DNA of 64,000 bases. It comes from Ferribacterium limneticum. GTDB taxonomy: Bacteria; Pseudomonadota; Gammaproteobacteria; Burkholderiales; Rhodocyclaceae. The stretch lies in NCBI RefSeq assembly GCF_020510565.1, contig NZ_CP075189.1, positions 1,286,501 through 1,350,500 of the forward strand, read 5' to 3'. The position numbers and the translations under genes are program-made. This document shows, piece by piece, positions 2,013 through 56,571 of the stretch. Under the pieces are notes generated by a model. It saw nothing but the letters and a program-made list of their open reading frames with translations, was not told the origin of the DNA and made no database searches. Each line of letters begins with the position of its first letter. The first letter of the stretch is position 1.

Positions 2013-2053
2013 GATTGCTACGGTCAACCGGGAAAAACGGGCAAAAATGAAAT
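2013..2053 (+). repeat. Dispersed CGGTCAACCGG motif, copy 1 (intergenic)
   Basis: Core CGGTCAACCGG at 2021-2031, preceded by GATTGCTA and followed by the 22-nt tail: GAAAAA, a short spacer, GGGC, AAAAAT, GAAAT. It lies just upstream of the methyltransferase start, in a 305-nt gap. The consensus is described under the findings. Confidence 0.85.
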
Positions 2054-2122
2054 TGGATTTTTTGGGTGGCGGTCGGCCAAGAGACAACGCGGCCAGAAGG
2101 CGTGCTCTTTCAGGCGCAAATC

Positions 2123-2219
2123 AAACCCCTCCCGGCCTCCCCTTGTCAGGGGAGGAGCAACCCAGAGCGCGCGCGACCAGCCCCCTCCCCTGTCAAGGGG
2201 AGGGCTGGGGAGGGGTTTG
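2123..2219. repeat. C/G-rich nested inverted repeat, copy A
   Basis: Outer arms AAACCCCTCCC and GGGGAGGGGTTT enclose two smaller palindromes (CCTCCCCTTGTCAGGGGAGG, and CCCTCCCC with its complement around TGTCAA). The segment could fold into one long or two short hairpins. A related element lies at 49331-49435. It sits upstream of the methyltransferase and downstream of the acyltransferase, so it may end transcription of the latter. Confidence 0.75.
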
Positions 2220-2278
2220 GGGGTTTTCAATCACAAGCGTAGTCGATTTCCCGGCTTTGGGATGATCGCGAACAGGCG

Positions 2279-2836
2279 CTACTCCAGCCAGCGAATCGGC
2301 GAGGCGAGTTCCGGGTGTTTGCCTTGCCGGCCCTCGTAGTGGGCGGCGATGGCGGCGATGTCGGCGGCGGGGTCGCCGGTCAGGGTGAGGTAGGCGAGGA
2401 TGCCGGCCTGGCGGCGCGAGTAGTCGACGAAGGCTAGGGCGACGGGGACTTTGGCGCCGAGGGCGATGCGGTAGAAGCCGCTTTTCCAGCCCGGGGTCAG
2501 GCTGCGTGTGCCTTCGGGGGCGATGACCAGGAGAAAGTTCGGGTTGGCGGCGAATTGGGCGACCATGTCGGCGACGAAGCCGCGTGGTGCGCGGCGATCG
2601 ATCGGGATGCCGCCGAGCCGGCGCATGATTCCGTCGAGCGGTCCGCGAAACAGGGTGTCCTTGCCCACCCAGCGGGCGTCGAGGCCGAGGGCCAGTTTGG
2701 TGAACAGGGCGATGAGGCCATCCTGGTTCGAGGTGTGCGGGTAGCCGACGAGGACGGCACGGGCCGGGCGCTCTGGCGGTTCGATGACGGTCCAGCCGAA
2801 GAGCTTGAGCAGGCTGCGGGCGACAGCTTTCAGCAT
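2279..2836 (-). CDS. PlsC-family 1-acylglycerol-3-phosphate acyltransferase-like protein
   Basis: A 185-residue protein starting MLKAVARSLL. It shows the glycerolipid acyltransferase block I motif HTSNQD (H34, D39; the HX4D catalytic pair) and the phosphate-binding EGTR block at 108-111. FRGPLDGIMRRLGGIPIDR between them fits block II. It is shorter than PlsC (about 240 residues) and resembles the compact stand-alone acyltransferases of proteobacteria whose acyl acceptor is uncertain. The longer open frame to 3385 fuses it to the antisense of the next gene and is not used. It follows the DUF47 gene by 4 nt on the same strand, so co-transcription with the phosphate uptake genes is likely. The substrate cannot be assigned from sequence. 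Confidence 0.85.
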   Translation of the reverse strand: MLKAVARSLLKLFGWTVIEPPERPARAVLVGYPHTSNQDGLIALFTKLALGLDARWVGKDTLFRGPLDGIMRRLGGIPIDRRAPRGFVADMVAQFAANPNFLLVIAPEGTRSLTPGWKSGFYRIALGAKVPVALAFVDYSRRQAGILAYLTLTGDPAADIAAIAAHYEGRQGKHPELASPIRWLE

Positions 2837-2840
2837 GGAT

Positions 2841-3485
2841 TCAGCACATCTTGACGATGATGTCGTGCAGGGTGTTGGCGCAGTTGGCCATGCGGTCGGC
2901 GGCGTTGGAGAGGTGGCGGTAGATTTCGCGGCGCTTGAACATGTGGATGTAGTCGTCGCCGACGAAGAGTTCGGCGATGGCGCGGCGGTAGTTTTTTTCA
3001 ACGCGGCGTTCGGCCTTGCGGGCGGCGTCGGCGTCGGCGGCGGCGGCGGCGGGTTCTTTGGCGAGACGCGAGTAGCCCTGGGATAGCGCATCGGTGCCGA
3101 GCTTGATGTGCATGGCCATTTCGAGGCAGTGCTTGTCGGGGGCGAGGCCGAGGACTTCCATTTCGCTGACGGTGGTCTTGCAGTAATTGACGATTTCGTC
3201 GAGGTCGATGATGGCGCGGTAGAGGTCTTCGCGGTCGATGGGGGTCGAGAAGGCTTCGTTGAGGGTGTGCAGATTGCGGATCTTGACGCGGTCGGCTTCG
3301 TGTTCGTCCTGGCGGATGAGCTGGCCAACCGTGGCATCGCCGGTTTCCATGAACTCGACGAGCCGGCCGGCGGTGATGCCGACATGCTGGCATTGCTCGG
3401 TGAGCAGGGTGAAGAAGTCGGGCATTTTTGGGAAAACGCGGTCGAACAGGCGGCGGAAGACCGAGGGGCTGGTTACTTCGCTCAT
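2841..3485 (-). CDS. DUF47/PhoU-like Pit accessory protein
   Basis: A 214-residue, mainly helical cytoplasmic protein (MSEVTSPSVF...) of the DUF47/TIGR00153 family, related to PhoU. Family members sit beside Pit transporters and affect their activity. Its ATG overlaps the stop of the Pit gene by 4 nt, indicating translational coupling and a two-protein phosphate uptake unit. An alanine/aspartate-rich stretch around residues 147-157 looks like a linker. No enzymatic motif is visible, so the regulatory role is inferred from family and position. Confidence 0.9.
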   Translation of the reverse strand: MSEVTSPSVFRRLFDRVFPKMPDFFTLLTEQCQHVGITAGRLVEFMETGDATVGQLIRQDEHEADRVKIRNLHTLNEAFSTPIDREDLYRAIIDLDEIVNYCKTTVSEMEVLGLAPDKHCLEMAMHIKLGTDALSQGYSRLAKEPAAAAADADAARKAERRVEKNYRRAIAELFVGDDYIHMFKRREIYRHLSNAADRMANCANTLHDIIVKMC

Positions 3486-4531: not shown

Positions 4532-4626
4532 CGGCCTGTGGAGTGCAGGCCAAGTCTCCATTTTTGGTTTATCTTGTTTTCAGCCAGTATATCGCCGAAG
4601 AGCGGCGTTTCGGGCGGCTCGGGGCC

Positions 4627-4667
4627 GATTGCCACGGTCAACCGGAAAAAATCGCCAAATTTGAAAT
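4627..4667 (+). repeat. Dispersed CGGTCAACCGG motif, copy 2 (intergenic)
   Basis: Near-consensus copy: GATTGCCA, core CGGTCAACCGG at 4635-4645, then AAAAAA, TCGCC, AAATTT, GAAAT. It ends 16 nt before the start of the transporter stub at 4684, between the divergent pit gene and that stub. Confidence 0.9.
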
Positions 4668-4683
4668 GCCGGAAAGAGGTGCC

Positions 4684-8810: not shown

Positions 8811-8845
8811 AGCGACGCCCGTCTGTCATCGGTTGGCCGCCGGGG

Positions 8846-8887
8846 ATTTCATATTTTGGCCAAAATTCCGGTTGACCGTAGCAGTCG
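8846..8887 (-). repeat. Dispersed CGGTCAACCGG motif, copy 3 (intergenic, reverse)
   Basis: On the minus strand: core CGGTCAACCGG, then AATTTT, GGCC, AAAATA, TGAAAT. The core is at 8868-8878 and the tail at 8846-8867, in the 256-nt gap between the sigma-54 activator and the TolC-like gene. Confidence 0.85.
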
Positions 8888-12279: not shown

Positions 12280-15020
12280 ACCAGATGCCGACGGTCTCCA
12301 TTCGTGCCCGGCTGGCCAGCATCAATTTTTATGTGCTGCTACTGGCGATTGCCTTTGTCAGCATATTCATCCTGGGCACCGCCGGCTGGATGGCGATGCG
12401 CGGGCATGTCGCCGAGGGCTACGCCCGCCTCGAATTGCTCAACGAAAGTTTGACTCCGGCGCTGGCCGGGAGTGAGCGCGCGGCATTCAACGAAAAGTTC
12501 GCGCTTCTGCGCAGCATGCCCTACCTGCATTCGGCCGCCTTGTTCCGGCAGGATCATTCGGTGTTCGTTGCCTACGATAGCCGCGGCGCCGAAGATTCCC
12601 GGCCGATGCCCTTGATCGATCCGGTGGCCGGGCATCGCTTCTCCTGGAGCCGGATTGATTTTCTGGCGCCGGCCGGCCCGCCCGATCAGCCTTTCGGCTG
12701 GTTGCGCCTGAGTATCGATTTGAGCAGCGTCTATCAGCAGTTGCTCATTTATCTTGGCTTGATCTTGTTTGAAACGGCAGTGGCTTTGGCTGTTGCACTA
12801 CGCTTGCAGGCGAGGCATGTCGAAAGGCTGATCGAACCCTTGCAGGGCTTGACCCAGCGCATGGCGGAGGTCTCGGTCGGCCGGCTGGATATTCGTGCGG
12901 CCGATAGCGGGGTGACCGAAATTGCCCAGCTGGCCGACGGTTTCAACCAGATGGTTGAACAGATTCGCGAACGCGATCACTGGTTGTCGACCCACCTGGG
13001 GAATCTGGAGCAGATTGTCGAGCAGCGGACGCGCGAACTGCGTCTCGCCAAGGAGGCGGCGGAGGCCGGCAGTCTGGCCAAGAGCGAGTTTCTGGCGACG
13101 ATGAGCCACGAGATCCGGACGCCGATGAATGGCGTGCTCGGCATGACCGAACTGCTGCTCAACACCGAACTGGCACCGACCCAGCGCCAGTTTGTCGAGG
13201 CGGTCGAGCGCTCGGGCAAACACCTGCTCGGCATCATCAACGACATTCTGGATTTTTCGAAAATCGAGTCGGGCAAACTGGAGCTTGATGCCGTCGATTT
13301 CGATCTGCGCCAGTTGCTCGAGGAATCACTCGAGCTGTTTTCGCAGCAGGCCGGCAAGAAAGGCCTGGAACTGCTGGCCGATCTGCCGCCGGACGAGAGT
13401 CTGGTGGTCCGGGGCGACGCCCTGCGTTTGCGCCAGATCGTCGTTAATTTGCTCGGCAATGCCATCAAATTCACGGCCAGCGGGGAGATTTTCCTGCGTT
13501 TGCGTGTCCTCGAAAATTCCGAATTTGGCCTGAATTTCCGGTTGACCGTGACAGACACCGGTATCGGCATTCCGCTGGACGCCCAGCAGCGGATTTTCGA
13601 ACATTTTGCCCAGGCCGATGGCTCGACGACGCGCCAGTACGGCGGAACCGGCCTCGGGCTGGCCATTTGTCAGCGCCTGGTCGACATGATGGGCGGCAGT
13701 ATCAGCGTCGACAGCCAGCCGGGGCAGGGGGCGAGCTTTTCGGTCGAATTGGCCATGCCGCACGGCCAGTTGCCAGAGGAAAAACCGGTGCAAAAACCGG
13801 CCGTCGTCGCTGGCCGGCGCTTGCTGATCGTCGATGACACGCCGGCCCATTGCGAGATTTTGCTGGCCCAGCTCAAGGGGCGCGGCTGGACGGCGGATAC
13901 GGCGAGTTCCGGACTGCGCGCCCTGGCCATGGCCGGCGCGGCGATGGCCGAAGGCGAGCCGTACGCGCTGTTGCTGGTCGACATGGAAATGGCCGAGATG
14001 TCAGGGCTCGACCTGATGCGCGCCTTGCACGCCAATCCCCGGCTGTCGGCGATGCGGGTCATCGTCTTTTCGTCGGCCCCTGACATGCCAGAGCAATTGG
14101 CGCAGGCCGGACTGGAGGTCGCGGCTTGTCTGGCCAAACCCTTGCGTCAGGCGGATTTGCTGCGTGCCGTCGAAGCCGCTCTTGGTCGCCGGGAGCGCAG
14201 CGAAAGCCTGAAAGTGCTACCGGCCAGCCGGAGGTTGCGCGGCAAGGTCTTGCTCGCCGAAGACAACGAAAGCAACCTGATCGTGGCGCGTGCCCAGCTG
14301 GAACGATTGGGGCTGGAGGTCATCAGCGCTGGCGACGGTCAGCAGGCGATCGATGTACTGGCGGGCGAGACGGTCGATCTCGTTTTGATGGATTGCCAGA
14401 TGCCGATCCTCGATGGTTTCGCCGCGACGGCGGCGTTGCGTGAACGCGAAGCGGGCAGCGACCGGCATCTGCCGGTCATCGCGCTGACGGCCAATGCCAT
14501 GAAGGGCGACCGCGAACGTTGCGTCGCGGCCGGGATGGATGATTACCTGGCCAAGCCCTACACCGGCGACGAGTTGCTGGCGGTGCTGGCGCGCTGGCTG
14601 CCGGCCGAGCGGCGCAAACCGGCGCCTGCTGCGAGTGCGCAGGGTGAGGTGGGCGACGATATGGCGCCGCTCGATCCGGGCGCCCTCGAAAAAATCCGGG
14701 CCTTGTCGCCTGATGGGGCGGAAGCGCTGGTCGGCCAGGTGCTGGTGGCCTATCTGAAAGCCGCCGAACGCGAATGGGTGCACTTCGATCAAGGCCTGGC
14801 CGATGGCGATACCGCCGTGCTGGCCCGCGCCGCCCATGCCCTCAAGTCGAGCAGTTTCAATGTTGGCGCCAACGGCCTGGCCGAGCGGTGCAGCGAGATC
14901 GAACAGCTTGGCCGGGAAGGACAGATGCGGCAGCTACTGACCCGGGTAGACGGGCTGCGGGCCGAGTGGTCGCGTGTCGAAGCCGCCCTGAAAGCATTGC
15001 TGGCTGGGCAAAAAGCATGA
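12276..15020 (+). CDS. Hybrid sensor histidine kinase (HAMP-HisKA-HATPase-REC-REC-Hpt)
   Basis: A 914-residue, BarA-like membrane kinase. Two membrane segments (about residues 17-40 and 160-180) flank a periplasmic sensor of about 120 residues, then a HAMP domain. HisKA has H278 in SHEIRTPMN. The ATP domain has [17 protein letters not shown] and [12 protein letters not shown]1 has D569 ([12 protein letters not shown]), REC2 has D706 ([12 protein letters not shown]), and the C-terminal Hpt has H854 ([10 protein letters not shown]). All phosphorelay residues are present. A copy of the dispersed motif falls between the N and G1 boxes of the ATP domain (residues 414-427). The gene overlaps the Hpt gene upstream and the REC gene downstream by 4 nt each. 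The signal sensed is unknown. Confidence 0.93.
13516..13554 (-). repeat. Dispersed motif, copy 4 (inside hybrid kinase)
   Basis: Minus-strand core CACGGTCAACCGG, tail AAATTCA, GGCC, AAATTC, GGAAT. The sense strand reads [10 protein letters not shown] in the kinase. Confidence 0.75.
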
Positions 15021-15492: not shown

Positions 15493-15990
15493 ATGCGATA
15501 TCGGAAAATCTGGCGAGGCCTGTTTTGCGCTTTTGTTTTTGGCAATTTTTTGCCATCGACCGTGGCAGTCGCCCAGGAAGCCAGGCCACTGGCCAAGGGG
15601 CAAACGCTTTACCTGCCGATCTATTCGCACATGCTCTACGGCAATCTGGGCAAGAGCGGCAAGGCGTCCAACGTCTTGCTGTCGACCCTGGTCAGCATTC
15701 GCAATACCGACATCAAGCGTTCAATCCGGGTGCTGTCAGCCAAATATTTCGACACCGGCGGCAAATTGCTTGGCGAGCGCGTGCCGGCGCCGACCGTCGT
15801 GCCGCCACTCGGCACGCTCGAGCTGTTTGTTGAGCTCAACGACGCTTCCGGTGGCTCGGGGGCCAATTTCATCATCAAGTGGGACGCCGAGCAGCTGGTC
15901 AATCCGCCGCTGGTCGAGTCCTTGCACGTCAATATGGATGGTGGCAAGGCCGTCATCTTCATGACCCAGTCGGTACCGCTGACGGAATGA
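15493..15990 (+). CDS. DUF3124 exported protein
   Basis: A 165-residue protein with a signal peptide ([28 protein letters not shown]) and a single domain of the DUF3124 type ([13 protein letters not shown] start, [25 protein letters not shown]), whose function is not known. The ATG is preceded by a purine-rich site (GGGGGACGAG). It overlaps the potassium channel gene by 4 nt, so a role connected with that channel is possible. Its signal peptide is partly encoded by a copy of the dispersed motif (residues 13-26). Confidence 0.8.
15530..15570 (-). repeat. Dispersed motif, copy 5 (in DUF3124 signal peptide)
   Basis: Minus strand: TGCCACGGTCGATGG core variant, then CAAAAAAT, TGCC, AAAAAC, AAAAG. 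The spacing is as in the consensus; the protein reads [14 protein letters not shown]. Confidence 0.7.
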
Positions 15991-18826: not shown

Positions 18827-19816
18827 ATGAACGCAAACATTCTCCGACCTTTCGTTTTTAGCCTTTTTTTCGGGTTGACCGTCGCAATTGCGGCTGAACC
18901 CTTGCCGGTCATTACCGTCAAGCCGCACGCCGTCGACCTGGCCTTCCCGGCCGAATCGCTGGTCGAGGCGGTGCAGCAGGCAACGGTCGGTGCCCAGATC
19001 GCCGGCCGCGTCCTTGAGGTCAGGGCTGACGCCGGCCAGTCGGTCAAAAAGGGCGACGTGCTCATGCGCATCGACGCTCGCGAGGCGGCCGAAGCGGCGC
19101 GTGCCGCCGAGGCCCAGTACGCCAATGCCAAGGTCAGTTACGACCGGACGAAAAGTCTCGTCACCCAGAAATTCATGAGCACCGCTGCGCTCGACAAGGC
19201 CAAGGCCGATCTCGATGCCGCCGCCGCCAATCGCGCTGCCGCCGGCGCCGGCCAGAGCCACGCCACCATCGTCGCGCCGATGACCGGCATCATCGCCCGT
19301 CGCCACGCCGAAATGGGCGATATGGCGACGCCGGGTAAACCGTTGTTTACCATCTACCAGCCGGGCACCCTGCGCGTTACGGCGAGCATTCCGCAATACC
19401 GCCTGAAGGCGATGCGCGATGTCAAAACGGCCCGTGTCGAATTCCCCGAGTTGGGCAAATGGGTCGATGCCGTTAAGGTTCAGGTGCTGCCGACGGCCGA
19501 TGCCGCGACCCACGTTTCGCAGGTCCGCGTGACGCTGCCCGATGTGCCGGAAGCGACGCCGGGCATGTTCGCCCGCGTCCATTTCATCACCGGCCAGTCG
19601 GAAAAACTGACCGTCCCGGCCGCTGCCGTGTTGCGGCGCGGCGAGGTCGCCGCGGTTTATGTGCAGACCGCCGACAATCGTTTGTCGCTACGTCAACTAC
19701 GCCTCGGCGACGCCGTCGGGCAGGGCGAAATCGAGGTTCTGGCCGGCTTGTCGGCCGGTGACAAGGTCGTCACCGACCCGGTCAAGGCCGGAATTCAGCT
19801 CAAGTCGGCAAACTAA
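18827..19816 (+). CDS. RND efflux periplasmic adaptor (membrane fusion protein)
   Basis: A 329-residue exported protein (start at 18827; 18815 is equally open and neither has a good ribosome site). It shows the usual order: signal peptide, barrel-sandwich half (VGAQIAGRVLEVRADAGQSVKKGDVL), alpha hairpin (about residues 90-140), second lipoyl half (IVAPMTGIIARRHAEMGDMATPG), beta-barrel and membrane-proximal domain. It pairs with the RND pump 3 nt downstream and would link it to an outer-membrane channel. Residues 8-21 of the signal peptide come from a copy of the dispersed motif. Confidence 0.92.
   Translation: MNANILRPFVFSLFFGLTVAIAAEPLPVITVKPHAVDLAFPAESLVEAVQQATVGAQIAGRVLEVRADAGQSVKKGDVLMRIDAREAAEAARAAEAQYANAKVSYDRTKSLVTQKFMSTAALDKAKADLDAAAANRAAAGAGQSHATIVAPMTGIIARRHAEMGDMATPGKPLFTIYQPGTLRVTASIPQYRLKAMRDVKTARVEFPELGKWVDAVKVQVLPTADAATHVSQVRVTLPDVPEATPGMFARVHFITGQSEKLTVPAAAVLRRGEVAAVYVQTADNRLSLRQLRLGDAVGQGEIEVLAGLSAGDKVVTDPVKAGIQLKSAN
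18849..18890 (-). repeat. Dispersed motif, copy 6 (in adaptor signal peptide)
   Basis: Minus strand: ATTGCGACGGTCAACCCG, then AAAAAAA, GGCT, AAAAAC, GAAAG. The sense reading is FVFSLFFGLTVAIA. Confidence 0.75.
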
Positions 19817-19819: not shown

Positions 19820-22800
19820 ATGAGCAGCGAGAAGACGACGCTCGGTATTTCCGGGCGCATTGCCGCCGCCTTCCAGAATTCGCGGATGACGCCGTTGCTG
19901 GCGCTGGTTGCCTTCCTGATGGGCCTCTTCGCCACGCTCGTCACGCCGCGCGAGGAAGAGCCGCAGATTGACGTGACCATGGCCGACGTCATGATTGCCT
20001 TCCCCGGCGCCTCGGCCAAGGATGTCGAAAATCTGGTGGCCCGTCCCGGCGAACAGGTGCTGTCGCGCCTGCATGGCGTCGAGCACGTGTACTCGGCCTC
20101 GCGTCCGGGCATGGCCATCATCACCGTGCAGTTCGACGTCGGCGTCAAATACAACGATGCCGTGCTCCGCCTCTACGACACCGTGCATTCGAACAGCGAC
20201 TGGCTGCCGGCCAACCTCGGGGTCATGGCGCCGGTCATCAAGCCGCGCGGCATCGACGATGTGCCGATTGTTGGACTGACTTTCTGGACCAAGGACCCGG
20301 CGCGCTCTGCCTTCGACCTGCAGCAGGTCGCCCGCGCAGTCGAGATCGAACTCAAGCGGATCAAGGGGACGCGCGACATCTCGACCATCGGCGGCCCTGA
20401 CCACGCCATCCGCGTCCTGATGGACGCCGAACGGATGAACGCTTTTGGCGTCACGCCGCAGGACATCGCCGGCGCGCTCAAGGTCTCGAACGCCCTGCAA
20501 TCCTCCGGCAATTTGACCGCCAGCAACCGCGAAGTGCTGGTCCAGACCGGCACCTATCTTGAATCGGCCGTCGACGTGAAGCAACTGGTCGTTGCCGTGC
20601 GCGGCGAGGCCAGCGCGCGCAAGCCGGTATTCATGAGCGACGTGGCGACCGTCGAGGACGGCCCGGATCAGCCGAAACGCTACGCTTGGTACGGCGACCA
20701 GAGCGGCGAATTTCCCGCTGTCACGATGCAGCTTTCCAAACAGCCCGGCGTCAATGCAGCCGATGTGGCGACTGCTACGGTCAACCGGATAAATGACCTG
20801 AAAAACAAAGTCATTCCCGAGGGCATCGAAGTTACCGTAACGCGCAACTACGGCGAAACGGCGACCGAAAAGGCTCAGAAACTGATCGGCAAGCTGGTAT
20901 TTGCCACGGCCTTCGTCGTCCTGCTCGTCTTTTTCGCCCTCGGCAAGCGCGAGGCGGTGATCGTCGGTGTCGCCGTGACGCTGACGCTGGCGGCGACGCT
21001 GTTCGCCTCCTGGGCCTGGGGCTTCACGCTCAACCGCGTCTCGCTGTTCGCGCTGATTTTCTCGATTGGCATCCTGGTCGATGACGCGATTGTCGTCGTC
21101 GAGAACATCCACCGCTGGCAAGGGCTGTACCCCGAAAAAAGCCTGTTCGAAATCATCCCGCCGGCGGTCGATGAAGTCGGCGGCCCGACCATCCTCGCCA
21201 CCCTGACCGTGATCGCGGCCCTGCTCCCGATGGCCTTCGTCAGCGGCCTGATGGGGCCGTACATGAGCCCGATTCCGATTAATTCGTCGATGGGCATGGC
21301 CATTTCGCTGGCCGTCGCCTTTGTCGTCACGCCCTGGCTGGCGGCGCGGATGATGAAGTCGCACGGCAACGCCCAGGCGGAGCATCAGCCATCGAAGCTC
21401 GACGCCAAACTCGACAGCACCTTCCGCAAGCTCCTGACCCCCTTCCTCGACCCGATCAAGGGCGGCGCCGCGCGGATCAAGCTGGCCATCGCCATCGTCC
21501 TGCTCATACTCGGCTCCGTGTCGTTGGCCTACTTCCAGCTCGTCGTGCTCAAAATGCTGCCGCTCGACAACAAGAGCGAATTCCAGGTCATTCTCGACAT
21601 GCCGGTCGGCACGCCACTTGAGGAAACAGCGCGCGTGCTGCATGAAATCGGCGCCGAACTGGCGCTCGAGAAGGATGTCACCAACTACCAGGCCTACGCC
21701 GGCACGGCCAGCCCGATCAATTTCAACGGCCTGGTTCGCCAGTACTACCTGCGTGCTTTGCCGGAAAAGGGCGACATTCAGGTCAACCTGGCTGACAAGC
21801 ATCACCGTTCGCGCTCCAGCCACCAAATCGCCACCGCCCTGCGCGACCGTGTCGAGGCCATCGGCAAGGCCAATGGTGGCGTCGCCAAGGTCGTCGAAGT
21901 GCCGCCCGGGCCGCCGGTCATGTCGCCCATCGTCGCCGAAATCTACGGTCCGGATATGAAGGGCCAGATGAGCGTCGGCAAGCAGGTGCGCAAGGCTTTC
22001 GAGGGAACGAAGGACATCGTCGCGGTCGACGACTACATCGAGGCCGATTCGCGCAAGGTCATCCTGCATGTGCTGCAGAGCAAGGCGGCGCAACTTGGTG
22101 TGGCGCAGAGCGACATCGTTGAGGTCGTCAGCATGGGACTGGCCGGGCAGGATGTCACGCCGGCCCACAATACCGAGTCGAAGTTCGAAATCCCGGTGCG
22201 CGTCACCTTGCCGGCCGAAAAGCAATCCAGCCTCGACGCGCTCCTGAAGCTCCGTGTTCGCTCGCGTGACGGTCAACTGGTGCCCGTTTCCGAACTGGTC
22301 GAAGTGCGCGATGCAGCCCGTGAGAAAGCTATCTACCACAAGGATCTGCTGCCGGTCGTGTACGTCGTCGGCGACATGGGCGGCAAGCTCGATTCGCCGC
22401 TCTACGGCATGTTCGACATCCGGAGCAAGATCAACGGCATGGAACTCAAGGAAGGCGGCACGCTGGGCGAATGGTTCATCCGCCAGCCGAATGACCCGTA
22501 CGCCGGCTACAGCGTCAAATGGGACGGCGAATGGAAGGTGACCTACGAAACCTTCCGCGACATGGGCATCGCCTACGGCGTCGGCCTGATCCTGATCTAC
22601 CTGCTGGTTGTCGCCCACTTCGGCAGCTACCTCGTGCCGCTCATCATCATGGCCCCGATCCCGCTGACCATCATCGGCGTCATGCCCGGCCACGCGCTGT
22701 TCGGCTCGCAATTCACGGCGACGTCGATGATCGGCATGATCGCCCTGGCCGGCATCATCGTCCGCAACTCCATCCTGCTCGTCGATTTCATCAAGCTGCA

Positions 22801-25462: not shown

Positions 25463-26329
25463 ATGAAGATCGGATTTATCGGCCTTGGCATCATGGGGCG
25501 CCCGATGGCGCTTAACCTGATCAAGGGTGGCCATGATGTCACCGTCTGGGCGCGCCGCGCCGAATCCATGCAGCCGCTGCTCGATGCCGGGGCCAAAGGT
25601 GCAGCCAGCCCGGCCGATGCCGCCCGTGGCAACGAACTGGTCATTTCGATGGTGGCTGATGCGCCGGATGTTGCCGAAGTCATGCGTGGCGTGGCCAGCG
25701 CCGGCCAGACTGGCTTGGTTGCTGTCGATATGAGCACCATCGCGCCGGCCGCGGCGCGCAAGATTGGTGAAGACCTGGCGGCAGCCGGTGTCGATTTCAT
25801 TGATGCCCCGGTCTCCGGTGGCGAAGTCGGCGCCATTGCCGGCACGCTGTCGATCATGGCCGGCGGCTCCGATGCGGCTTTCGCCCGGGCCAAACCGGCT
25901 TTCGAATGCATGGGCAAGAACATCGTGCACGTCGGCGCCAGTGGCGCGGGGCAGGTGACCAAGGCGGCCAACCAGATCGTGACCGGCATGGGCGTTCTAG
26001 CCGTCGCCGAGGCATTTGCATTTGCGGCAAAAAATGGCGTTGACCGTAGCAAGGTGCGCGAGGCTCTGCTCGGCGGCTTCGCCTACTCGAAAATCCTCGA
26101 AAACCACGGCCAGCGCATGCTCGACCGCAATTTCAAACCGGGTTTCAAGAGCTGGATGCACGAAAAGGATCTGAACATCGTCATGCAGACGGCGCACGAA
26201 CTGGGTCTCTGCCTGCCGGGTTCGGCGGCGACGGCACAGATGTTCAACGCCATGGTCGGTTCCTGCATGGGCGAAGAGGATTCGATCGCCGTCCTTAAAT
26301 TGCTTGAACGCTTGTCGGGGCAGGAATGA
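25463..26329 (+). CDS. garR: Tartronate semialdehyde reductase-like (2-hydroxy-3-oxopropionate reductase)
   Basis: A 288-residue beta-hydroxyacid dehydrogenase. An N-terminal NAD(P) site (IGFIGLGIMGRPMA) is followed by FIDAPVSGGEVGA (substrate loop) and a conserved lysine in GQVTKAANQIV. This pattern fits GarR/GlxR, which reduces tartronate semialdehyde to glycerate, though 3-hydroxyisobutyrate dehydrogenase is close. GGAG lies 6 nt before the ATG at 25463. The stop overlaps the next dehydrogenase gene. With hyi, glycerate kinase and glcDEF at 48-54 kb it would complete glyoxylate to 3C acid conversion. It contains a copy of the dispersed motif (residues 184-197). Confidence 0.82.
   Translation: MKIGFIGLGIMGRPMALNLIKGGHDVTVWARRAESMQPLLDAGAKGAASPADAARGNELVISMVADAPDVAEVMRGVASAGQTGLVAVDMSTIAPAAARKIGEDLAAAGVDFIDAPVSGGEVGAIAGTLSIMAGGSDAAFARAKPAFECMGKNIVHVGASGAGQVTKAANQIVTGMGVLAVAEAFAFAAKNGVDRSKVREALLGGFAYSKILENHGQRMLDRNFKPGFKSWMHEKDLNIVMQTAHELGLCLPGSAATAQMFNAMVGSCMGEEDSIAVLKLLERLSGQE
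26014..26055 (-). repeat. Dispersed motif, copy 8 (inside garR-like gene)
   Basis: Minus strand: TTGCTACGGTCAACGCC, then ATTTTTT, GCC, GCAAAT, GCAAAT. The spacing is kept, but it is read in a different frame (AFAFAAKNGVDRSK) from the other antisense copies. Confidence 0.6.
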
Positions 26330-28889: not shown

Positions 28890-29515
28890 TGCTGGCCGTA
28901 CCCCTTGAATTTTTCCAGCACGGCGGCCATTTCATCGGCCGAGAGCAGCACCGGCTGACCGAGCTGGCAGGCCCGCCAGTATTGCTCGCAGAGTTCTTCG
29001 AGTTCGATGGCGAGCGCCAATGCCTCGTCGAGGTCGCGCCCGGCGACGAGCAGGCCGTGGTTGGCCAGCAGGCAGGCCTTGCGGTCGGCCATGGCGGTCA
29101 TTGCTGCGGTCGACAGGGAATTTGAGCCAAAAATGGAATACTCGGCGCAGCGTATCGTGTCGCCGCCGAAGCGCGCGATCATGTAATGAAACGGCGGAAT
29201 GTCGAGGCGCAGGCAAGCCAGGCTGACGGCGAAGGGCGAATGGGCGTGCAGGACGGCGCCGACTTCCGGCCGGGTGGCATAGAGGTCGCGGTGAAAGCGC
29301 CATTCGGACGACGGCTTGCGGCTGCCAATGTGTGAGCCGTCGAGGGCCATGAGCGGGATGTCGTCTTCAATCAAGGTGTCGTAGGCCATGCCGGTCGGCG
29401 TGATGTAGAAGCCGTCACCGCTGCGCACGCTGACATTGCCGGCAGTGCTGCGATTGAGGCCGGCCGGCTGCATGGCGCGGGCCGTGGCGATCAGATCAGT
29501 ACGCAAATCAGCCAT
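28886..29515 (-). CDS. Class II aldolase, fuculose-phosphate-aldolase-like (Ald2/MtnB candidate)
   Basis: A 209-residue class II aldolase/adducin-family enzyme. Glutamate in PSSEWRFH and zinc histidines in HAHS and NHGLL are in place. The protein tracks the FucA pattern closely (GLNRSTAGNVSVR, ITPTGMAYD, HYMIARFGGDTI, VLEKFKGYG), more so than MtnB. Its ATG overlaps the mtnA stop. Two roles fit: the methylthioribulose-phosphate (or deoxyribulose-phosphate) aldolase of the DHAP shunt, or the MtnB dehydratase of the classical methionine salvage pathway. The FucA-like sequence favours the aldolase. Confidence 0.85.
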   Translation of the reverse strand: MADLRTDLIATARAMQPAGLNRSTAGNVSVRSGDGFYITPTGMAYDTLIEDDIPLMALDGSHIGSRKPSSEWRFHRDLYATRPEVGAVLHAHSPFAVSLACLRLDIPPFHYMIARFGGDTIRCAEYSIFGSNSLSTAAMTAMADRKACLLANHGLLVAGRDLDEALALAIELEELCEQYWRACQLGQPVLLSADEMAAVLEKFKGYGQQ

Positions 29516-31837: not shown

Positions 31838-31878
31838 GATTCCCACGGTCAACCGGAAAAAATGCCCAAAATTGAAAA
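31838..31878 (+). repeat. Dispersed motif, copy 10 (intergenic)
   Basis: GATTCCCA, exact core at 31846-31856, AAAAAAT, GCCC, AAAATT, GAAAA. It lies between the convergent aminotransferase and nhaR genes; nothing else is seen in this gap. Confidence 0.9.
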
Positions 31879-31898
31879 CCGGCCGGCAGTGCGCCAGC

Positions 31899-34861: not shown

Positions 34862-34903
34862 CCATTGCCACGGTCAACCGGAAAAAATGGCCAAAATTGA
34901 AAT
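34862..34903 (+). repeat. Dispersed motif, copy 11 (intergenic)
   Basis: One of the best copies: ATTGCCA, exact core at 34871-34881, AAAAAAT, GGCC, AAAATT, GAAAT. It lies between the mscL terminator and the glnE stop. Confidence 0.92.
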
Positions 34904-34917
34904 GGCCATGGCGCCCC

Positions 34918-42421: not shown

Positions 42422-43867
42422 ATGACTCAAAACAGCGCGTTGGCCCAAGCCGAATCCCTGCTGCTGGCCCCCTTCTCGCTCAGCGAAGGCGACCTGTCGC
42501 GAACCTTCGGCCAGATCCTGACGCATCAGGTCGATTACGCCGACCTCTATTTCCAGTACTCGCGCTCCGAGGCATGGAGTCTCGACGAAGGCATCGTCAA
42601 GTCGGGCAGTTTCAACATCGACCAGGGCGTCGGCGTGCGCGCCATTTCGGGCGAAAAGACGGCCTTTGCCTACTCCGACGACATCAGTTCGCAAGCGCTC
42701 GGCGATGCCGCCAACGCCGTGCGGGCGATTGCCGTAGCCGGGCAGAATTTCAAATTTGGCCAATTTTTCCCGTCGACCGTAGCAAGGTCGCTCTACGTGC
42801 CGAACGACCCGATTGCCTCGCTGCCGGCCGAAGCCAAGGTCAAGTTGCTCGAACGCCTCGAAGGCTTTGCCCGGGCGCTCGATCCGCGTGTTCTGCAGGT
42901 CATGGCCTCGCTGGCCGGCGAATACGAAGTGGTCCTCGTTGCCGGTTCCGACGGCCGTCTGGCCGCCGACATCCGGCCGCTGGTGCGCTGCTCGATCTCG
43001 GTCATCATTGAAGAAAACGGCAAACGCGAGCAGGGTTCGTCCGGCGGTGGCGGTCGTTTCGACTTCGGCTATTTCGACGACGAAATCCTCCAGCGCTACG
43101 CCAAGGAGGCAGTCCATCAGGCCGCCACCAATCTCCATGCCGACCCCGCCCCGGCCGGTCAGATGACGGTCGTGCTCGGTTCCGGCTGGCCCGGCATCCT
43201 TTTGCATGAAGCTGTCGGCCATGGTCTCGAAGGCGACTTCAACCGCAAGGGCAGCTCGACCTTCAGCGGCCGCGTCGGCCAGCGCGTCGCCGCCGAGGGC
43301 GTCACCGTCATCGACGACGGCACGATTGCCGACCGGCGCGGCTCGCTCAATATCGACGACGAAGGCAATACGACGCAGCGCACTGTACTGATCGAGGATG
43401 GCATCCTCAAGGGCTATCTGCAGGACAGCCTGAATGCCCGCCTCATGGGCGTCGCCCCGACCGGCAACGGCCGCCGCGAATCCTTCGCCCATCTGCCCAT
43501 TCCGCGCATGACCAACACCATGATGCTGGCCGGCCAGCACGATCCGGCGGAAATCATCAAGTCGGTCAAGAAGGGCATCTACGCCGCCAACTTCGGCGGT
43601 GGCCAGGTCGATATCACGAGCGGCAAGTTCGTCTTTTCGATGAGCGAGGCCTACCTGATCGAAGACGGCAAGGTGACGCGCCCGATCAAGGGGGCGACGC
43701 TGATCGGCAACGGCCCGGATGCGATGACTCGCGTTTCGATGATCGGCAACGACCTCAAACTCGACCCCGGTGTCGGCACCTGCGGCAAGGATGGACAGAG
43801 CGTTCCGGTCGGCGTCGGACAACCCACTTTGCGTATTGATGGACTGACGGTGGGTGGTACTGCATAA
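42422..43867 (+). CDS. tldD: TldD metalloprotease subunit
   Basis: A 481-residue protein with the zinc motif HEAVGH in the centre ([18 protein letters not shown]) and the glycine-rich C-terminal region of the family. TldD pairs with TldE/PmbA to degrade peptides, including microcin precursors; TldE is not in the window. The ATG follows the nitrilase gene by 10 nt. Residues 109-122 ([14 protein letters not shown]) are encoded by a near-perfect copy of the dispersed motif. Confidence 0.95.
42747..42788 (-). repeat. Dispersed motif, copy 12 (inside tldD)
   Basis: Minus strand: TTGCTACGGTCGACGGG, then AAAAATT, GGCC, AAATTT, GAAAT. The tail is a full consensus match. Confidence 0.85.
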
Positions 43868-46680: not shown

Positions 46681-47502
46681 TCAGTCGGCGAAATTCGGCC
46701 GACGTTTCTCGCGCTGGGCGGCGATGCACTCGCCGAGGTCGGCCGAGAGCAGCATCGCCGCGTTCCAGCCGGCGACGTAATTGAGGCCGTCGGCCACCGA
46801 GTGGTCACGGCTGAAATTCAGCACGTCCTTTGTGCCGCGAACGGCCAGCGGCGACTTGCCGGCGATGGTTTGGGCGATTTCCCTGACGCCTAAGGTCAAC
46901 CGGGAAAAATCGTCAAATTTGAAATTGATCAGGCCGAGTTTTTCCGCTTCCTCGGCGTCGACATTGCGGCTGGTGTACGCCAGTTCGCGTGTCATGCCTT
47001 CACCGATCAGGCGCGGCAGTCGTTGCAGCGTGCCAACGTCGGCGACCATGCCGAGGTCGATTTCCTTGATCGAAAAAAATGCATCGGGCGCCGCGTAGCG
47101 CATGTCGCAGCAGGTCACGAGATCGAGCGCACCGCCGACGCAGGCGCCTTGGATCGCAGCGATAACGGGCTTGCGGCAGCGTTCGATGCTGCTCAGACAA
47201 TCCTGCAAATCGAGGATCAGCCGGCGCAATGTTTCGCGGCTGCGGGCGCCATCGGCGTGAGCAATCTGTTGCTGGATGCTGCCGAGCATGGCGAGGTCGA
47301 TCCCGGCGCAGAAGTTTTTCCCTTCGCCGCTCAGGATGGCGACGCGGGCTTCCGGCGTGGTATCGACCCATTCGAAAGCCTGACGGATTTCCTGCCACAT
47401 CGCCGCGTTCATGGCGTTCGACTTGTCTGGCCGATTGAGGCGAACCTCGGCGACATGATCGTCGAGCGTGAGGGCGAGGGTGCTGAATTCAGGGGGATTC
47501 AT
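46681..47502 (-). CDS. Crotonase-family enoyl-CoA hydratase/dienoyl-CoA isomerase
   Basis: A 273-residue protein with the crotonase oxyanion segments (KNFCAGIDL and QGACVGGALDLVTCCDMRYA). The active-site stretch SIKEIDLGMVADVGTLQRLP has the acidic pair typical of delta-3,5-delta-2,4-dienoyl-CoA isomerases (ECH1), so isomerase is favoured over hydratase. The role is beta-oxidation of unsaturated fatty acids or similar. It stands alone, convergent with aroG. Residues 193-206 (FKFDDFSRLTLGV) come from a copy of the dispersed motif. Confidence 0.87.
   Translation of the reverse strand: MNPPEFSTLALTLDDHVAEVRLNRPDKSNAMNAAMWQEIRQAFEWVDTTPEARVAILSGEGKNFCAGIDLAMLGSIQQQIAHADGARSRETLRRLILDLQDCLSSIERCRKPVIAAIQGACVGGALDLVTCCDMRYAAPDAFFSIKEIDLGMVADVGTLQRLPRLIGEGMTRELAYTSRNVDAEEAEKLGLINFKFDDFSRLTLGVREIAQTIAGKSPLAVRGTKDVLNFSRDHSVADGLNYVAGWNAAMLLSADLGECIAAQREKRRPNFAD
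46884..46925 (+). repeat. Dispersed motif, copy 13 (inside crotonase gene)
   Basis: ACGCCTAAGGTCAACCGG, GAAAAAT, CGTC, AAATTT, GAAAT. It is antisense to the gene, with one core substitution. Confidence 0.85.
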
Positions 47503-47566: not shown

Positions 47567-47625
47567 TTGTCCCACGGTCAACCGGGTTTACTACGTGAAA
47601 CGTAAAAAAGCGGCAAAAACGAAAT
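47567..47625 (+). repeat. Dispersed motif, copy 14, with 18-nt insertion (intergenic)
   Basis: Exact core at 47575-47585, an extra 18 nt (GTTTACTACGTGAAACGT), then the normal 22-nt tail AAAAAAG, CGGC, AAAAAC, GAAAT. It lies between the crotonase and the small conserved gene. The inserted stretch contains a parS-like half-site ACGTGAAAC. Confidence 0.8.
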
Positions 47626-49318: not shown

Positions 49319-49330
49319 CTGGCGCCACCA

Positions 49331-49435: not shown

Positions 49436-50692
49436 TTGATCCCACGCGACATCCTGCGCCGCCTGTTCGACGCCGCCATCGCCGCCGCCGATCCGGCGTT
49501 GCGTGTCCCGCCGCATTTGCCGCCCGATGACGGTGGCCGACTCATCGTCATCGGTGCCGGCAAGGCCTCGGCGGCCATGGCGCGGGCTGTCGAGCAGCAT
49601 TGGTCCGGGCTGCTCGAAGGAACGGTCGTCACACGCTACGGCCACGGCGTGCCGTGCGAACGGATCAAGATCATTGAGGCTGCACACCCGGTCCCGGACG
49701 CCGCCGGCGAGGCAGCAGCGCTTTCCATTTTTGCGCAAATTTCCCGGTTGACCGTGGAAGACCGCGTTCTGGCGCTCATTTCCGGCGGCGGCTCGGCCTT
49801 GCTCGCCGCCCCGGCGCCCGGCGTCACGCTGGCCGAAAAGCGGGCGCTCACCGCGGCCTTGCTGCGCTCGGGGGCGAGCATTGGCGAGATCAACTGCGTG
49901 CGCAAACACCTCTCCGCCCTCAAGGGCGGCCGTCTCGCCGCCGCTGCCTGGCCGGCCTCGGTGCTGACGCTGGCGATTTCCGACGTGCCCGGCGACGACC
50001 CGGCCGTCATCGCCTCCGGCCCGACCGTCGGCGATCCGACGACCTGCGCCGAGGCGCTCAAGGTCCTCGATTTCTACGCCATCGCCATCCCGCCCGACCT
50101 GCGCCGCCGCCTCGAATGCGGCGAACTTGAAACGCCCAAGCCGGGCGACCCGCGTCTGGCCAACAGCGAATTCCGCCTCATCGCCAGCCCGCGCCAGATG
50201 CTCGAAGCGGCCGCCGCCGAGGCGCAACGGCTCGGCATCACGCCGCTCATCCTCGGCGACGCTATCGAAGGTGAGGCGCGCGAAGTCGGCAAGGTCATGG
50301 CCGCCATGGCGCGTTCCTGCGGTCAACACGGATTTCCGGCCCAAAAGCCCTGCGTCCTGCTCTCCGGCGGTGAAACGACAGTAACGATGCAAGGCGACGG
50401 CCGCGGCGGCCGCAACACCGAATTCCTGCTCAGCCTGGTCTTGGCGCTCGATAGCACGCCGGGTATTCACGCCCTGGCCGCCGACACCGACGGCATCGAC
50501 GGTAGCGAGGACAATGCTGGCGCCTTCATCACGCCCGAAACGCTGGCTCGGGCGCGGGCGTCCGGCCTCGACCTGCGCGCCCGGTTGGCCAACAACGACG
50601 CATGGACCGCCTTCTCGCAACTCGGCGACCTGCTGGTCACCGGTCCGACGCGAACCAACGTCAATGATTTCCGCGCCATCCTCGTAGAATGA
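49436..50692 (+). CDS. Glycerate 2-kinase (MOFRL family)
   Basis: A 418-residue kinase of the TtuD/GckA type. It has LIVIGAGKASAAMARAVE near the start, ALISGGGSALLAAP, CVRKHLSALKGGRLA and the C-terminal MOFRL domain (PCVLLSGGETTVTM, GRGGRNTEFLLSL, DGIDGSEDNAGAF). It makes 2-phosphoglycerate from glycerate. The only suitable start is TTG at 49436, a few nt after the G-rich end of the repeat. The stop overlaps the glcD start. Residues 96-108 (SIFAQISRLTVED) carry the dispersed motif. Confidence 0.9.
   Translation: MIPRDILRRLFDAAIAAADPALRVPPHLPPDDGGRLIVIGAGKASAAMARAVEQHWSGLLEGTVVTRYGHGVPCERIKIIEAAHPVPDAAGEAAALSIFAQISRLTVEDRVLALISGGGSALLAAPAPGVTLAEKRALTAALLRSGASIGEINCVRKHLSALKGGRLAAAAWPASVLTLAISDVPGDDPAVIASGPTVGDPTTCAEALKVLDFYAIAIPPDLRRRLECGELETPKPGDPRLANSEFRLIASPRQMLEAAAAEAQRLGITPLILGDAIEGEAREVGKVMAAMARSCGQHGFPAQKPCVLLSGGETTVTMQGDGRGGRNTEFLLSLVLALDSTPGIHALAADTDGIDGSEDNAGAFITPETLARARASGLDLRARLANNDAWTAFSQLGDLLVTGPTRTNVNDFRAILVE
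49722..49760 (-). repeat. Dispersed motif, copy 15 (inside glycerate kinase gene)
   Basis: Minus strand: CTTCCACGGTCAACCGG, GAAATTT, GCGC, AAAAAT, GGAAA. The core is exact. Confidence 0.8.
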
Positions 50693-52179: not shown

Positions 52180-53240
52180 TGCAGCTCGACGACATCATCT
52201 CCGCCGTCAAGTCAGCTCACGACAGCCGCACGCCGCTGCGCATCCGCGGCGCTGGCAGCAAGGATTTCTACGGCGGTTTGCTGGCCGGCGAGGTGCTTGA
52301 CGTCGCCAGCCATCGCGGCATCGTCGCCTACGAGCCGACCGAGCTTTACATCACGGCAAAATGCGGCACGCCGCTCGCCGAAATCGAGGCCGTGCTGGCC
52401 GAAAAAGGCCAGATGCTGGCCTTCGAGCCGCCGCAATTTGGCGGCGCCACAGTTGGCGGCTGCGTCGCTGCCGGCCTGTCCGGCCCACGTCGGCAACAGG
52501 CCGGTGCCGTGCGCGACTTCGTGCTCGGCGTCAAACTGGTCGACGGGACCGGCCAAATGCTCAATTTCGGCGGCCAGGTCATGAAAAACGTCGCCGGCTA
52601 CGATGTGTCGCGGGTGATTGCCGGCAGCCTCGGCACGCTGGGCGTCATCGCCGAAGTTACGCTCAAGGTGCTGCCCAAGCCGGTCGCCGAAACGACGCTG
52701 GTTTTTGCATGCGATGCAGCGGAGGCCATTCGCCGACTCAACGATTGGGGTGGCCAGCCGCTGCCGATTTCGGCCTCGTTCTGGCACGACGGCCAGCTCT
52801 GGCTGCGCCTGTCCGGCGCGCGGGCGGCGGTTGAGGCGGCCACGGCCAAGCTCGGCGGGTCTTCCACGGTCACCCCGGAAAAACACTGGAATTCGATACG
52901 CGAACAAACGCATCCCGCCTTCGCTGCCAGCCCGTTGTGGCGACTCGCCTTGCCCTCGACCGCGCCGTGTCCGGAACTCGACGGCCTGCGCGCTATCGAG
53001 TGGGGCGGGGCTTTGCGCTGGTACGCCGGCGAAATCGATGGCGACCACGAAGCGGTGCGCGTGGCCGCCGCCAGCCTCGGCGGCCACGCAGTGCTCTACC
53101 GCGCGCCGGAATCGCTGCGCTGTCGGGACGGGGCATTCGCCGAGTTGCCTCCGGCCTTGCTCGCCCTGCATCGCCGCCTCAAAAAAGCCTTCGACCCGCA
53201 GGGCATCCTCAACCCCGGCCGGCTGTACGCGGAGTTCTGA
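52179..53240 (+). CDS. glcE: Glycolate oxidase subunit GlcE
   Basis: A 353-residue FAD-binding protein, shorter than GlcD, with RIRGAGSKDFYGG, FGGATVGGCVAAGLSGPRR and GYDVSRVIAGSLGTLGVIAEVTLKV. The C-terminal FDPQGILNPGRLY is standard for the family. It is translationally coupled to glcD and glcF (1-nt overlaps each). Residues 228-240 (SSTVTPEKHWNS) match a degenerate copy of the dispersed motif. Confidence 0.93.
   Translation: MQLDDIISAVKSAHDSRTPLRIRGAGSKDFYGGLLAGEVLDVASHRGIVAYEPTELYITAKCGTPLAEIEAVLAEKGQMLAFEPPQFGGATVGGCVAAGLSGPRRQQAGAVRDFVLGVKLVDGTGQMLNFGGQVMKNVAGYDVSRVIAGSLGTLGVIAEVTLKVLPKPVAETTLVFACDAAEAIRRLNDWGGQPLPISASFWHDGQLWLRLSGARAAVEAATAKLGGSSTVTPEKHWNSIREQTHPAFAASPLWRLALPSTAPCPELDGLRAIEWGGALRWYAGEIDGDHEAVRVAAASLGGHAVLYRAPESLRCRDGAFAELPPALLALHRRLKKAFDPQGILNPGRLYAEF
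52862..52899 (+). repeat. Dispersed motif, degenerate copy 16 (inside glcE)
   Basis: CTTCCACGGTCACCCCGG then AAAAAC, ACTGG, AATTCG. The core has one extra base and the tail is loose. This is the weakest copy I keep. Confidence 0.4.
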
Positions 53241-55365: not shown

Positions 55366-55451
55366 GTGCCGGGAATGAAACCAGGGCTGGACACAGTGTT
55401 AATGGCTGCTCAATCCTTCCGTGATAAGCTTCCCCAAAAAAAGGGGAATGG

Positions 55452-56225
55452 ATGTCCATAGCAGTCGACGCCTGCGCAGCGCAGCATCAAGGGGATCGCA
55501 AGGAACAACAGGATCGCGTCGCGATCCTCCCGCACGCCCGCAAACGCGGCGTGGCACTGGCCGTCGTTGCCGATGGCATGGGTGGTCACACCGGTGGTGC
55601 ACTGGCGGCCGAGCAGGTCGTGCATACCGCCAAAACCAATCTCGACCAGTTTTCGTCCACCGATGAGAATCCCCAGCGCATGCTCGAAAACGCCATGCGT
55701 GAAGCGCACACAATGATCAAGGCGTCGCGCTTCATGAACGAAATGGACCCTCACAGCACGGCGGTCATGCTGCTTCTACAGCCGGGAAAAATCACCTGGG
55801 GGCACTGCGGGGATAGTCGTCTCTACCATTTTCGCGGCCACAAGCTGGTCGAGCGCTCAGTCGATCATTCTTACGTTGAGCACCTTGTTACCCTCGGGAA
55901 AATCACCCCAGAGCAGGCGCTGACTCACCCCAATCGCAATGTGCTGCTGGCGTCGCTGGGCGGGCAGGACGACCCGAAAATTACGCTCTCCGAAACAGTC
56001 GATCTCGTTTCCGGCGATGCCTTCGTGCTCTGTTCGGATGGCCTCTGGGCTTACTTTGATGACGAAGAACTCGGCATGCTGGTCGCCCAGAATTCGGCCC
56101 GGCAGGCCTGTGAGATATTGATCGACAAGGCGCGGCGGCGCGCCAATGGCGGCGGTGACAATCTTTCGCTGGCTATCGTCAAACTGGTCCAGGCTCTGCC
56201 GGCGAAGGGGACTGTGCGGGGCTGA
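55452..56225 (+). CDS. PP2C-family protein serine/threonine phosphatase
   Basis: A 257-residue PPM phosphatase with metal-binding motifs QQDR, VADGMGGHTGG, WGHCGDSRLY, CSDGLW and GGGDNLSLA all intact, so it should be an active Mn/Mg enzyme. No kinase gene is next to it. The start at 55452 follows a purine-rich stretch. It converges on rhlE with a 670-nt gap filled by a large inverted repeat. Confidence 0.9.
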   Translation: MSIAVDACAAQHQGDRKEQQDRVAILPHARKRGVALAVVADGMGGHTGGALAAEQVVHTAKTNLDQFSSTDENPQRMLENAMREAHTMIKASRFMNEMDPHSTAVMLLLQPGKITWGHCGDSRLYHFRGHKLVERSVDHSYVEHLVTLGKITPEQALTHPNRNVLLASLGGQDDPKITLSETVDLVSGDAFVLCSDGLWAYFDDEELGMLVAQNSARQACEILIDKARRRANGGGDNLSLAIVKLVQALPAKGTVRG

Positions 56226-56266
56226 GGCTTTGTGAAAAGCGGTGCTTTTCTGGGGGTGGTTTTTTT

Positions 56267-56520
56267 CGGTTAATTGGCTTGGGGTTCCGCCTTGTTGGCG
56301 GGCGTACTTTCTTTTGCTTCGCCAAAAGAAAGTAGCCAAAGAAAAGGCGACCCCAAGGTCGGCGCCGGCTTTGCCGGTTCCTTGCGCTACTCGGCAGACC
56401 GGGCGGCTGCGGAACTCGGGCTTCGCCCTCAAACAGTCCTCGCCGACTGCCCCCGGCCTTCCTGCGTTGCTCAGCGCCTTCCACGGGGGCCCCAAAGGCG
56501 TCCGGGCTCGACGGAAGTAG
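56267..56520 (+). repeat. Left arm of large inverted repeat
   Basis: A roughly 250-nt arm that begins CGGTTAATTGGCTTGGGG and contains TACTTTCTTTTGCTTCGCC, with its own short hairpin, then GCGGAACTCGGGCTTCGCC. The complement at 56610-56863 matches over most of its length with small changes. Repeats of this type are common in intergenic regions of betaproteobacteria and give spurious arginine/serine-rich open frames. Confidence 0.85.
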
Positions 56521-56530
56521 CGCAAAAAGC

Positions 56531-56571
56531 CGTTTCCACGGTCAACCGGAAAAAACGGTAAAAAATGAAAT
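56531..56571 (+). repeat. Dispersed motif, copy 17 (between inverted arms)
   Basis: GTTTCCA, exact core at 56539-56549, AAAAAAC, GGTA, AAAAAT, GAAAT. It lies at the centre of the long inverted repeat. Confidence 0.9.

Follow-up and report, generated by a model that had tools for sequence, protein, structure and literature searches.

A dispersed 40-bp motif in Ferribacterium limneticum and its congeners is probably a DNA uptake signal sequence

A 64,000-nucleotide stretch of the Ferribacterium limneticum chromosome (NZ_CP075189.1, positions 1,286,501 to 1,350,500, here called the window) carries an asymmetric motif of about 40 bp, dispersed within and between genes, which is probably an independently evolved DNA uptake signal sequence. 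The motif probably works like the uptake signal sequence (USS) of Pasteurellaceae, yet it lies outside both that family and the DNA uptake sequence (DUS) family of Neisseriaceae, because the core sequences of the two known families are absent from it. The balance also leans, with somewhat less assurance, towards a third family of self-DNA uptake signals, evolved separately in Azonexaceae, with a USS-like design of a GCGGTC-like core and A-tracts at a fixed helical distance, several dialects and repeated losses in one genus. The original prediction of an uptake-like or other protein-recognised genome-wide sequence is supported, and the dialects and the origin of copies through substitution favour an uptake role. 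In the open-licence papers searched, genome-encoded uptake signals are discussed for Pasteurellaceae and Neisseriaceae; none of these papers was listed as describing such sequences in Rhodocyclales, Azonexus or Dechloromonas, which is not proof of absence.

Abundance was evaluated with a weight matrix trained on the source genome of the window (G000), with scores in bits. Training was iterative and drew on 464 kb, made up of the window and 20 further stretches of this chromosome, 18 of them near-evenly spaced and two (at 490 kb and 885 kb) set at known core clusters, and the matrix converged on 117 sites; a held-out set of 400 kb at even spacing provided a less biased estimate of abundance. 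The held-out stretches contained 77 sites of at least 20 bits and 68 of at least 30 bits, and no sites were present in reversed and 3-mer-shuffled controls. For the training set, reversed sequence and first-order Markov simulation yielded no site of at least 8 bits. Given 77 held-out copies and none in the controls, we therefore estimate that the 4,150,051-bp chromosome contains ∼700–800 copies of GATTGCYACGGTCAACCGGAAAAAATNGCCAAAWTTGAAAT, in both orientations. When a separate pattern, CGGTCRAC-N15-AWWWY, was counted, the genome contained 812 matches, compared to 5 for the reversal of this pattern, and the 10-mer core was found 503 times, compared to 79 for the reversed control. The motif is thus far commoner than controls across the genome, as predicted.

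Sites scoring at least 45 bits were aligned (alignment A1, 79 of 80 sites; the one omitted, L027:9413, is a member of a close inverted pair). The G000 motif holds about 45 bits of information, and outside positions −8 to +32 of the consensus each position carries no more than ∼0.1 bit. Ahead of the core CGGTCAACCGG stand TGCYA or letters resembling TTCCA; behind it come, in order, an A/T block at +11 to +16, a spacer rich in G and C, another A/T block at +22 to +27, and GAAAT at +28 to +32. The two A/T blocks are centred 11 bp apart, or about one helical turn, consistent with the proposal that they lie 10–11 nt apart on the same face of the helix. Scores vary continuously between 18 and 67 bits among the sites, and there is no conserved sequence in the flanks.

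Genes were called with our own simple hexamer-based caller. Among the 170 sites of at least 30 bits in 864 kb, 88 were intergenic, in 12.1% of the sequence, and 82 were in genes, so that the density of intergenic copies is about 8-fold that within genes. Convergent gaps held 26 of the 87 classified intergenic copies in 20 of 101 kb, a ∼1.5-fold enrichment, and divergent gaps were not enriched. Intragenic copies showed a strong frame preference, with one frame taking 33 of 43 same-strand and 28 of 39 opposite-strand sites, and peptides such as ATVNRKK and FFRLTVA therefore recur in unrelated proteins.

To examine the origin of the copies, two 20-kb segments of the window were compared with their orthologues in congeners; PMC1626085 describes the same kind of orthologue test for the Haemophilus USS. 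Eight intragenic sites gave 41 comparisons, in 28 of which the orthologue was without the motif. These motif-less orthologues mostly aligned without gaps or with few: 13 were gapless, 14 contained 2–10 gap symbols, and one (G067 at 49721) contained 27. An empty site of 40 nt was seen in none of the 41 intragenic comparisons. In G002, which has the same dialect, the motif was kept at 8 of 8 sites (scores 34–57), and identity was 89% at the site, compared to 87% in the flanks. Six congeners in which this dialect is scarce showed 57% identity at the site, compared to 81% in the flanks (27 comparisons); the scarcity concerns this dialect only, since the general pattern is matched 366 times in G024. 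Gapless motif-less orthologues, together with divergence concentrated at the site, indicate that copies form by substitution, and we conclude that intragenic copies arise by substitution, not insertion, with the substitutions concentrated in the motif. At the intergenic copy at 34863 the whole block is missing in G071, which may represent a deletion or intergenic turnover.

Eight congeners were sampled for dialects, with about 64–100 kb from each, and four of them (G029, G011, G030, and G063) carried dialects with an altered prefix or suffix around CGGTCR. The G029 dialect, AATGCTACGGTCRR..SSGAWWWWW....C.AAAWY, was found at 16 sites (control 0), and that of G011, KYCACGGTCGAC.G with an A/T block at +23 to +26, at 55 sites (control 1). 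There were 66 sites (control 0) for the G030 dialect, T..YRCGGTCRAC with A/T at +24 to +26, and 47 sites (control 0) for the G063 dialect, SCGGTCRAC with WWWT at that same position. Seedless k-mer counts recovered the G029, G011, and G030 cores, and more weakly that of G063. Constant across dialects were CGGTCR and the A/T block at about +23 to +26. Only 12–14 weak sites were obtained from G035 and G071, and de novo sampling gave no motif in G018 and G068. De novo refinement in G071, G018, and G068, and in G029 with a poor seed, collapsed to codon-periodic background; with a better seed the real motif was obtained in G029.

The pattern CGGTCRAC-N15-AWWWY was then counted in 300 genomes of the order, and in 56 congeners (Azonexaceae/Rhodocyclaceae) that were at least 90% complete. 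Order-wide, the four genomes of the same genus had 812, 690, 498, and 71 matches, six genomes of other genera in the family had 0–3, and the remaining 290 had no more than 18, with a few genomes of other families also exceeding their reversed control (e.g., G344, 17 compared to 2). The 56 congeners divided into 33 with 308–1137 matches, nine with 36–123, and 14 with 6–29, while reversed controls gave 0–4; even the low group remained above its own reversed controls (0–3). With the model of this dialect, 12 of 60 congeners reached at least 100 sites and 10 had none, the top counts being lower limits because at most 108 candidates were scored per genome; G029 was among the 12 by weaker matches that belong to another dialect. 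A strict 39-nt form was found at 44 loci in seven metagenome-assembled genomes of a GTDB species collection (a scan that may leave out the window's own genome): 35 loci fell in six genomes whose titles name Rhodocyclaceae, Azonexaceae, Azonexus or Betaproteobacteria, and nine were in one (OSL_B.mb.10) with the broad title Gammaproteobacteria. The motif therefore extends beyond this genome, with many related genomes carrying the pattern or the strict form. Viral contigs contained no exact match to a 33-nt form and, when searched with one window protein, no relative; plasmids contained no match to the 42-nt consensus at E up to 1, and 20 phage records contained partial matches to it (E of 0.7 for the ten listed).

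Among known systems, the Haemophilus USS has two tracts at one-turn spacing, and the DUS of Neisseriaceae, which belong to the Betaproteobacteria, is a 10–12-mer, GCCGTCTGAA, without A/T tracts. The Pasteurellaceae USS has a Hin type, AAGTGCGGT, and an Apl type, ACAAGCGGT; PMC1626085 quotes the two types as AAGTGCGGT and ACAAGCGGTC, and PMC7811141 describes the Haemophilus USS as a core plus AT tracts. On these accounts, the motif resembles the Pasteurellaceae USS in its strong core and A/T tracts, in a copy number that runs to hundreds or thousands, in copies that originate by substitution, and in having more than one type, and the G030 (TGCGGTCRAC) and G063 (GCGGTCRAC) dialects share GCGGT with both Pasteurellaceae types (AAGTGCGGT and ACAAGCGGTC). 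The likeness to the Pasteurellaceae USS that was first proposed thus holds for architecture, dialects, substitution origin, and on/off distribution. The motif differs in its core, which is CGGTCRAC with a species-dependent prefix, not AAGTGCGGT or ACAAGCGGT, in the longer high-information form seen in G000, and in its hosts, which are Betaproteobacteria of the Azonexaceae with several dialects in one genus. With the Neisseriaceae DUS, for which PMC3630211 and PMC2346458 describe many copies and species dialects, it shares these two properties and a betaproteobacterial host, but the consensus contains no GCCGTCTGAA word, the sequence is unrelated, and the G000 motif has A/T tracts. In comparison with DUS systems, it is also of note that a ComP_DUS (PF16732) pilin is present in 54 of the 56 congeners, yet does not track the motif. 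A word search of PMC7371117 for DUS-poor regions gave no passage.

If the motif is an uptake signal, the competence type IV pilus would have a surface receptor that prefers DNA carrying the asymmetric tag, with its core TGCYACGGTCAACCGG and two A/T blocks ∼11 bp apart, among free DNA, and this preference would cause DNA of the same species to be taken up more often. Copies generated by point mutation would then spread as tagged fragments are imported and recombined, and would be retained where the protein tolerates them. Such a process would leave the chromosome with hundreds of copies, let dialects change along with the receptor, and allow the motif to decay wherever competence had been lost. 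The receptor is probably a minor pilin, by analogy with ComP, the cognate DUS receptor in Neisseria according to PMC3868556, and PpdA/ComN, the predicted receptor for Pasteurellaceae in PMC12616744. In G000, ComEC is present, ComEA was detected above cut-off, and pilins and a pilY1-like gene are present in one operon. All 56 congeners have ComEC, and 52 have ComEA and 53 GspH (PF12019) above cut-off. An uptake signal in this lineage would also suggest that members of the group are naturally transformable now or were so recently.

Several observations weigh against an uptake signal. ComEC, ComEA, and the GspH/FimT and ComP_DUS pilins are present in motif-poor and motif-rich genomes alike, so that the on/off pattern is not followed by any gene examined. 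Four genomes have no ComEA match above cut-off, and three of them are motif-rich (G067, G015, and G363), G067 being a complete single contig. FimT, a hypervariable minor pilin encoded in the ispH-pilY1 operon, does not follow dialect: the G000 protein scored only 32 bits against same-dialect G002, compared to 41 against G067 and 275 against G077. Only the G000-type and G029 dialects have a strong first A/T block; in G011, G030, and G063 it is weak, and the block at +23 to +26 alone stands out. Copies become sparser with proximity to the terminus (Spearman −0.55) and where G+C is low, and ordinary flagellar and metabolic genes are found in several of the sparse stretches, a pattern that could also fit a chromosome-organising site. 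Lastly, a receptor was not found among ComEC, ComEA, GspH/FimT, ComP_DUS, and the pilins compared. GspH/FimT and ComP_DUS were rejected as candidates by their occurrence in motif-rich and motif-poor genomes, and the best-conserved G000 pilin (C1:2963379) among the 30 loci listed from eight genomes is also 87% identical in motif-poor G071; this pilin resembles the type II secretion subunit GspG. A gene state that tracks the motif is not strictly required, because PMC1626085 reports that every species it covers has a homologue of each known H. influenzae competence gene. The minor pilin operon itself, from ispH to the pilY1-pilE end (G000 C1:1630449-1639074), is compositionally atypical by our gene caller.

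The state of comEC was also examined. This gene is clearly interrupted in five congeners, of which G068, G018, and G035 are motif-poor and G002 and G008 are motif-rich, the latter two being a further point against uptake. The 3:2 distribution is compatible with, but does not prove, loss of competence followed by decay of the motif. In G035 the comEC domain is split over two frames, and in G008 it is split over two contigs and contains an in-frame TAG; in G006 and G019 the comEC matches are partial and located at the ends of contigs. In G002, comEC contains a 33.7-kb element (C33:109608-143311; G+C about 0.45–0.55) that has a large serine recombinase (Pfam Resolvase, Recombinase, zinc ribbon) at one end and no motif copies, compared to about five expected. 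Serine-recombinase elements of 32–34 kb occupy the same comEC position in G002 and G068 (C1:2218693-2251157). G018 (C8 near 1086371) has about 26 nt of the element end in common at the same place, so it probably carries the same kind of element, making comEC an integration site in two congeners and probably in a third. In G000, a chromosomal F-type transfer region (C1:2900001-2920000; TraK, TrbI, TraC, TraU, TraN; normal G+C, 0.621), which was chosen for examination because it is copy-free, has 0 copies compared to 3–4 expected, and another copy-free stretch holds a phage integrase. Stretches with 0–1 copy also hold metabolic and flagellar genes, and depletion is therefore not limited to mobile DNA.

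The observed features of the motif match those of uptake signals, and each rival explanation fails on at least one of them. As a site for chromosome organisation or segregation, the motif would be recognised at ∼700–800 positions by a DNA-binding protein of the cytoplasm, such as a nucleoid-associated or nucleoid-occlusion protein, with selection acting at each position. A long, specific, protein-like recognition sequence would suit such a protein, as would the lower density near the terminus, the restriction to one genus among the genomes searched, and the lack of a tie to any competence gene examined. KOPS, Chi, matS, and nucleoid-occlusion sites are chromosome-wide words of this kind, recognised by proteins, and KOPS and Chi show replication-strand polarity. 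Unlike these words, the motif is longer, has dialects in sister species, and shows no strand polarity on the held-out stretches (34:34; 97:73 over all 864 kb, p = 0.08), where a bias suspected on the first stretches (63:39) was gone. Selection at hundreds of such long sites, about half of them intragenic, is implausible, and dialect changes and on/off states among congeners would be unusual for an essential function, so that a chromosome-organising role appears unlikely.

It is very improbable that the motif is a regulatory or transcription-termination element. Although the excess of intergenic copies, their presence in convergent gaps, and the inverted neighbours seen by eye among G011 sites would agree with such a role, 82 of the 170 copies are intragenic and in both orientations, the convergent enrichment is only ∼1.5-fold with none in divergent gaps, close oppositely oriented pairs are rare in G000 (two within 200 nt among sampled sites), and no Rfam family matched the window above its gathering score. 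A small dispersed mobile element of the repetitive extragenic palindrome (REP) or miniature inverted-repeat transposable element (MITE) type, inserting in and between genes, would account for the high copy number, the near-constant length, the ∼8-fold higher density between genes, and the intergenic copy at 34863 that has no counterpart in G071. The motif is dispersed and denser between genes, as are REP/MITE repeats, but it was not an insertion at the sites compared, where no 40-nt empty site was seen, and it is also found inside genes. The continuous range of scores, the flanks without conserved sequence, and dialects that differ in part of the motif only are likewise at odds with insertion, and the mobile element is largely refuted and scarcely credible.

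Within the window, the genome-trained matrix recovered all 17 copies of the original prediction, at 19.6–67.5 bits and at coordinates identical or 1–3 nt off. A good copy that had not been listed lies at 29099..29140 (+, 43 bits; 42.6 before rounding), in a gene with a class II aldolase domain (28886-29515, −), and weaker extras are at 54031+ (21.5 bits) and 63886+ (25.4 bits). The core CGGTCAACCG occurs 11 times exactly, as first counted, and 26 times with at most one mismatch, above the mean of 7.8 and maximum of 16 in 100 shuffles; one exact core, at 27606−, is without a tail and was not counted as a copy. The distance from core to tail was constant as described, with the exception of an interrupted copy at 47567..47608 (+, 20 bits; core at 47575), in which 18 nt between core and tail are absent from aligned G002. 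The original prediction placed seven copies between genes and ten within genes; both classes are present, but our gene calls divide the 17 as 8/9, disregarding two low-scoring calls (4564-4833 and 31821-31934).

Intergenic copies are located at 2013..2054 (+, 61 bits), 4627..4668 (+, 66 bits, overlapped by a low-scoring open reading frame call), and 8845..8886 (−, 54 bits, with an orthologue of 49 bits in G002), and, with convergent genes on either side, at 31838..31879 (+, 65 bits), 34863..34904 (+, 68 bits), and 56531..56572 (+, 57 bits). The copy at 15529..15570 (−, 40 bits) is mainly upstream of a gene call (15562-15990, +) and overlaps its start. Copies at 13515..13556 (−, 49 bits), in a hybrid sensor kinase gene (12276-15020, +), and at 20770..20811 (+, 44 bits), in an AcrB-family pump gene (19820-23038, +), aligned without gaps to motif-less G035, and at 31178..31219 (+, 44 bits), in a gene with an aminotransferase domain (29676-31805, +), all seven orthologues compared were gapless. 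Other copies lie at 18848..18889 (−, 51 bits) in a membrane-fusion protein gene (18815-19816, +), at 26013..26054 (−, 32 bits) in a gene with 6-phosphogluconate/3-hydroxyisobutyrate dehydrogenase NAD-binding domains (25415-26329, +), at 42746..42787 (−, 57 bits) in a gene with a PmbA/TldD metallopeptidase domain (42392-43867, +), at 46885..46926 (+, 46 bits) in a gene with an enoyl-CoA hydratase domain (46681-47502, −), and at 49721..49762 (−, 51 bits) in a gene with DUF4147 and MOFRL domains (49436-50692, +); a weak copy at 52859..52900 (+, 30 bits) is in a gene with a FAD-binding domain (52179-53240, +). The window also contains, at 49310-49450, a G/C-rich palindromic repeat of the CTCCCCTTGAAGGGGAGG type that looks REP-like. 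Partial copies of this repeat recur in other parts of the window and in four more of the sampled G000 stretches, and dispersed copies are present in G072.

If the motif is an uptake signal sequence, recognised by a receptor and spread by recombination as proposed, then self-preferring DNA uptake would be a trait that evolves repeatedly. The on/off states and dialects among close relatives would then supply dozens of natural contrasts for finding the receptor. These contrasts would also test whether uptake bias alone builds up such sequences, and they would open the receptor and the switching of dialects to comparative genomics.

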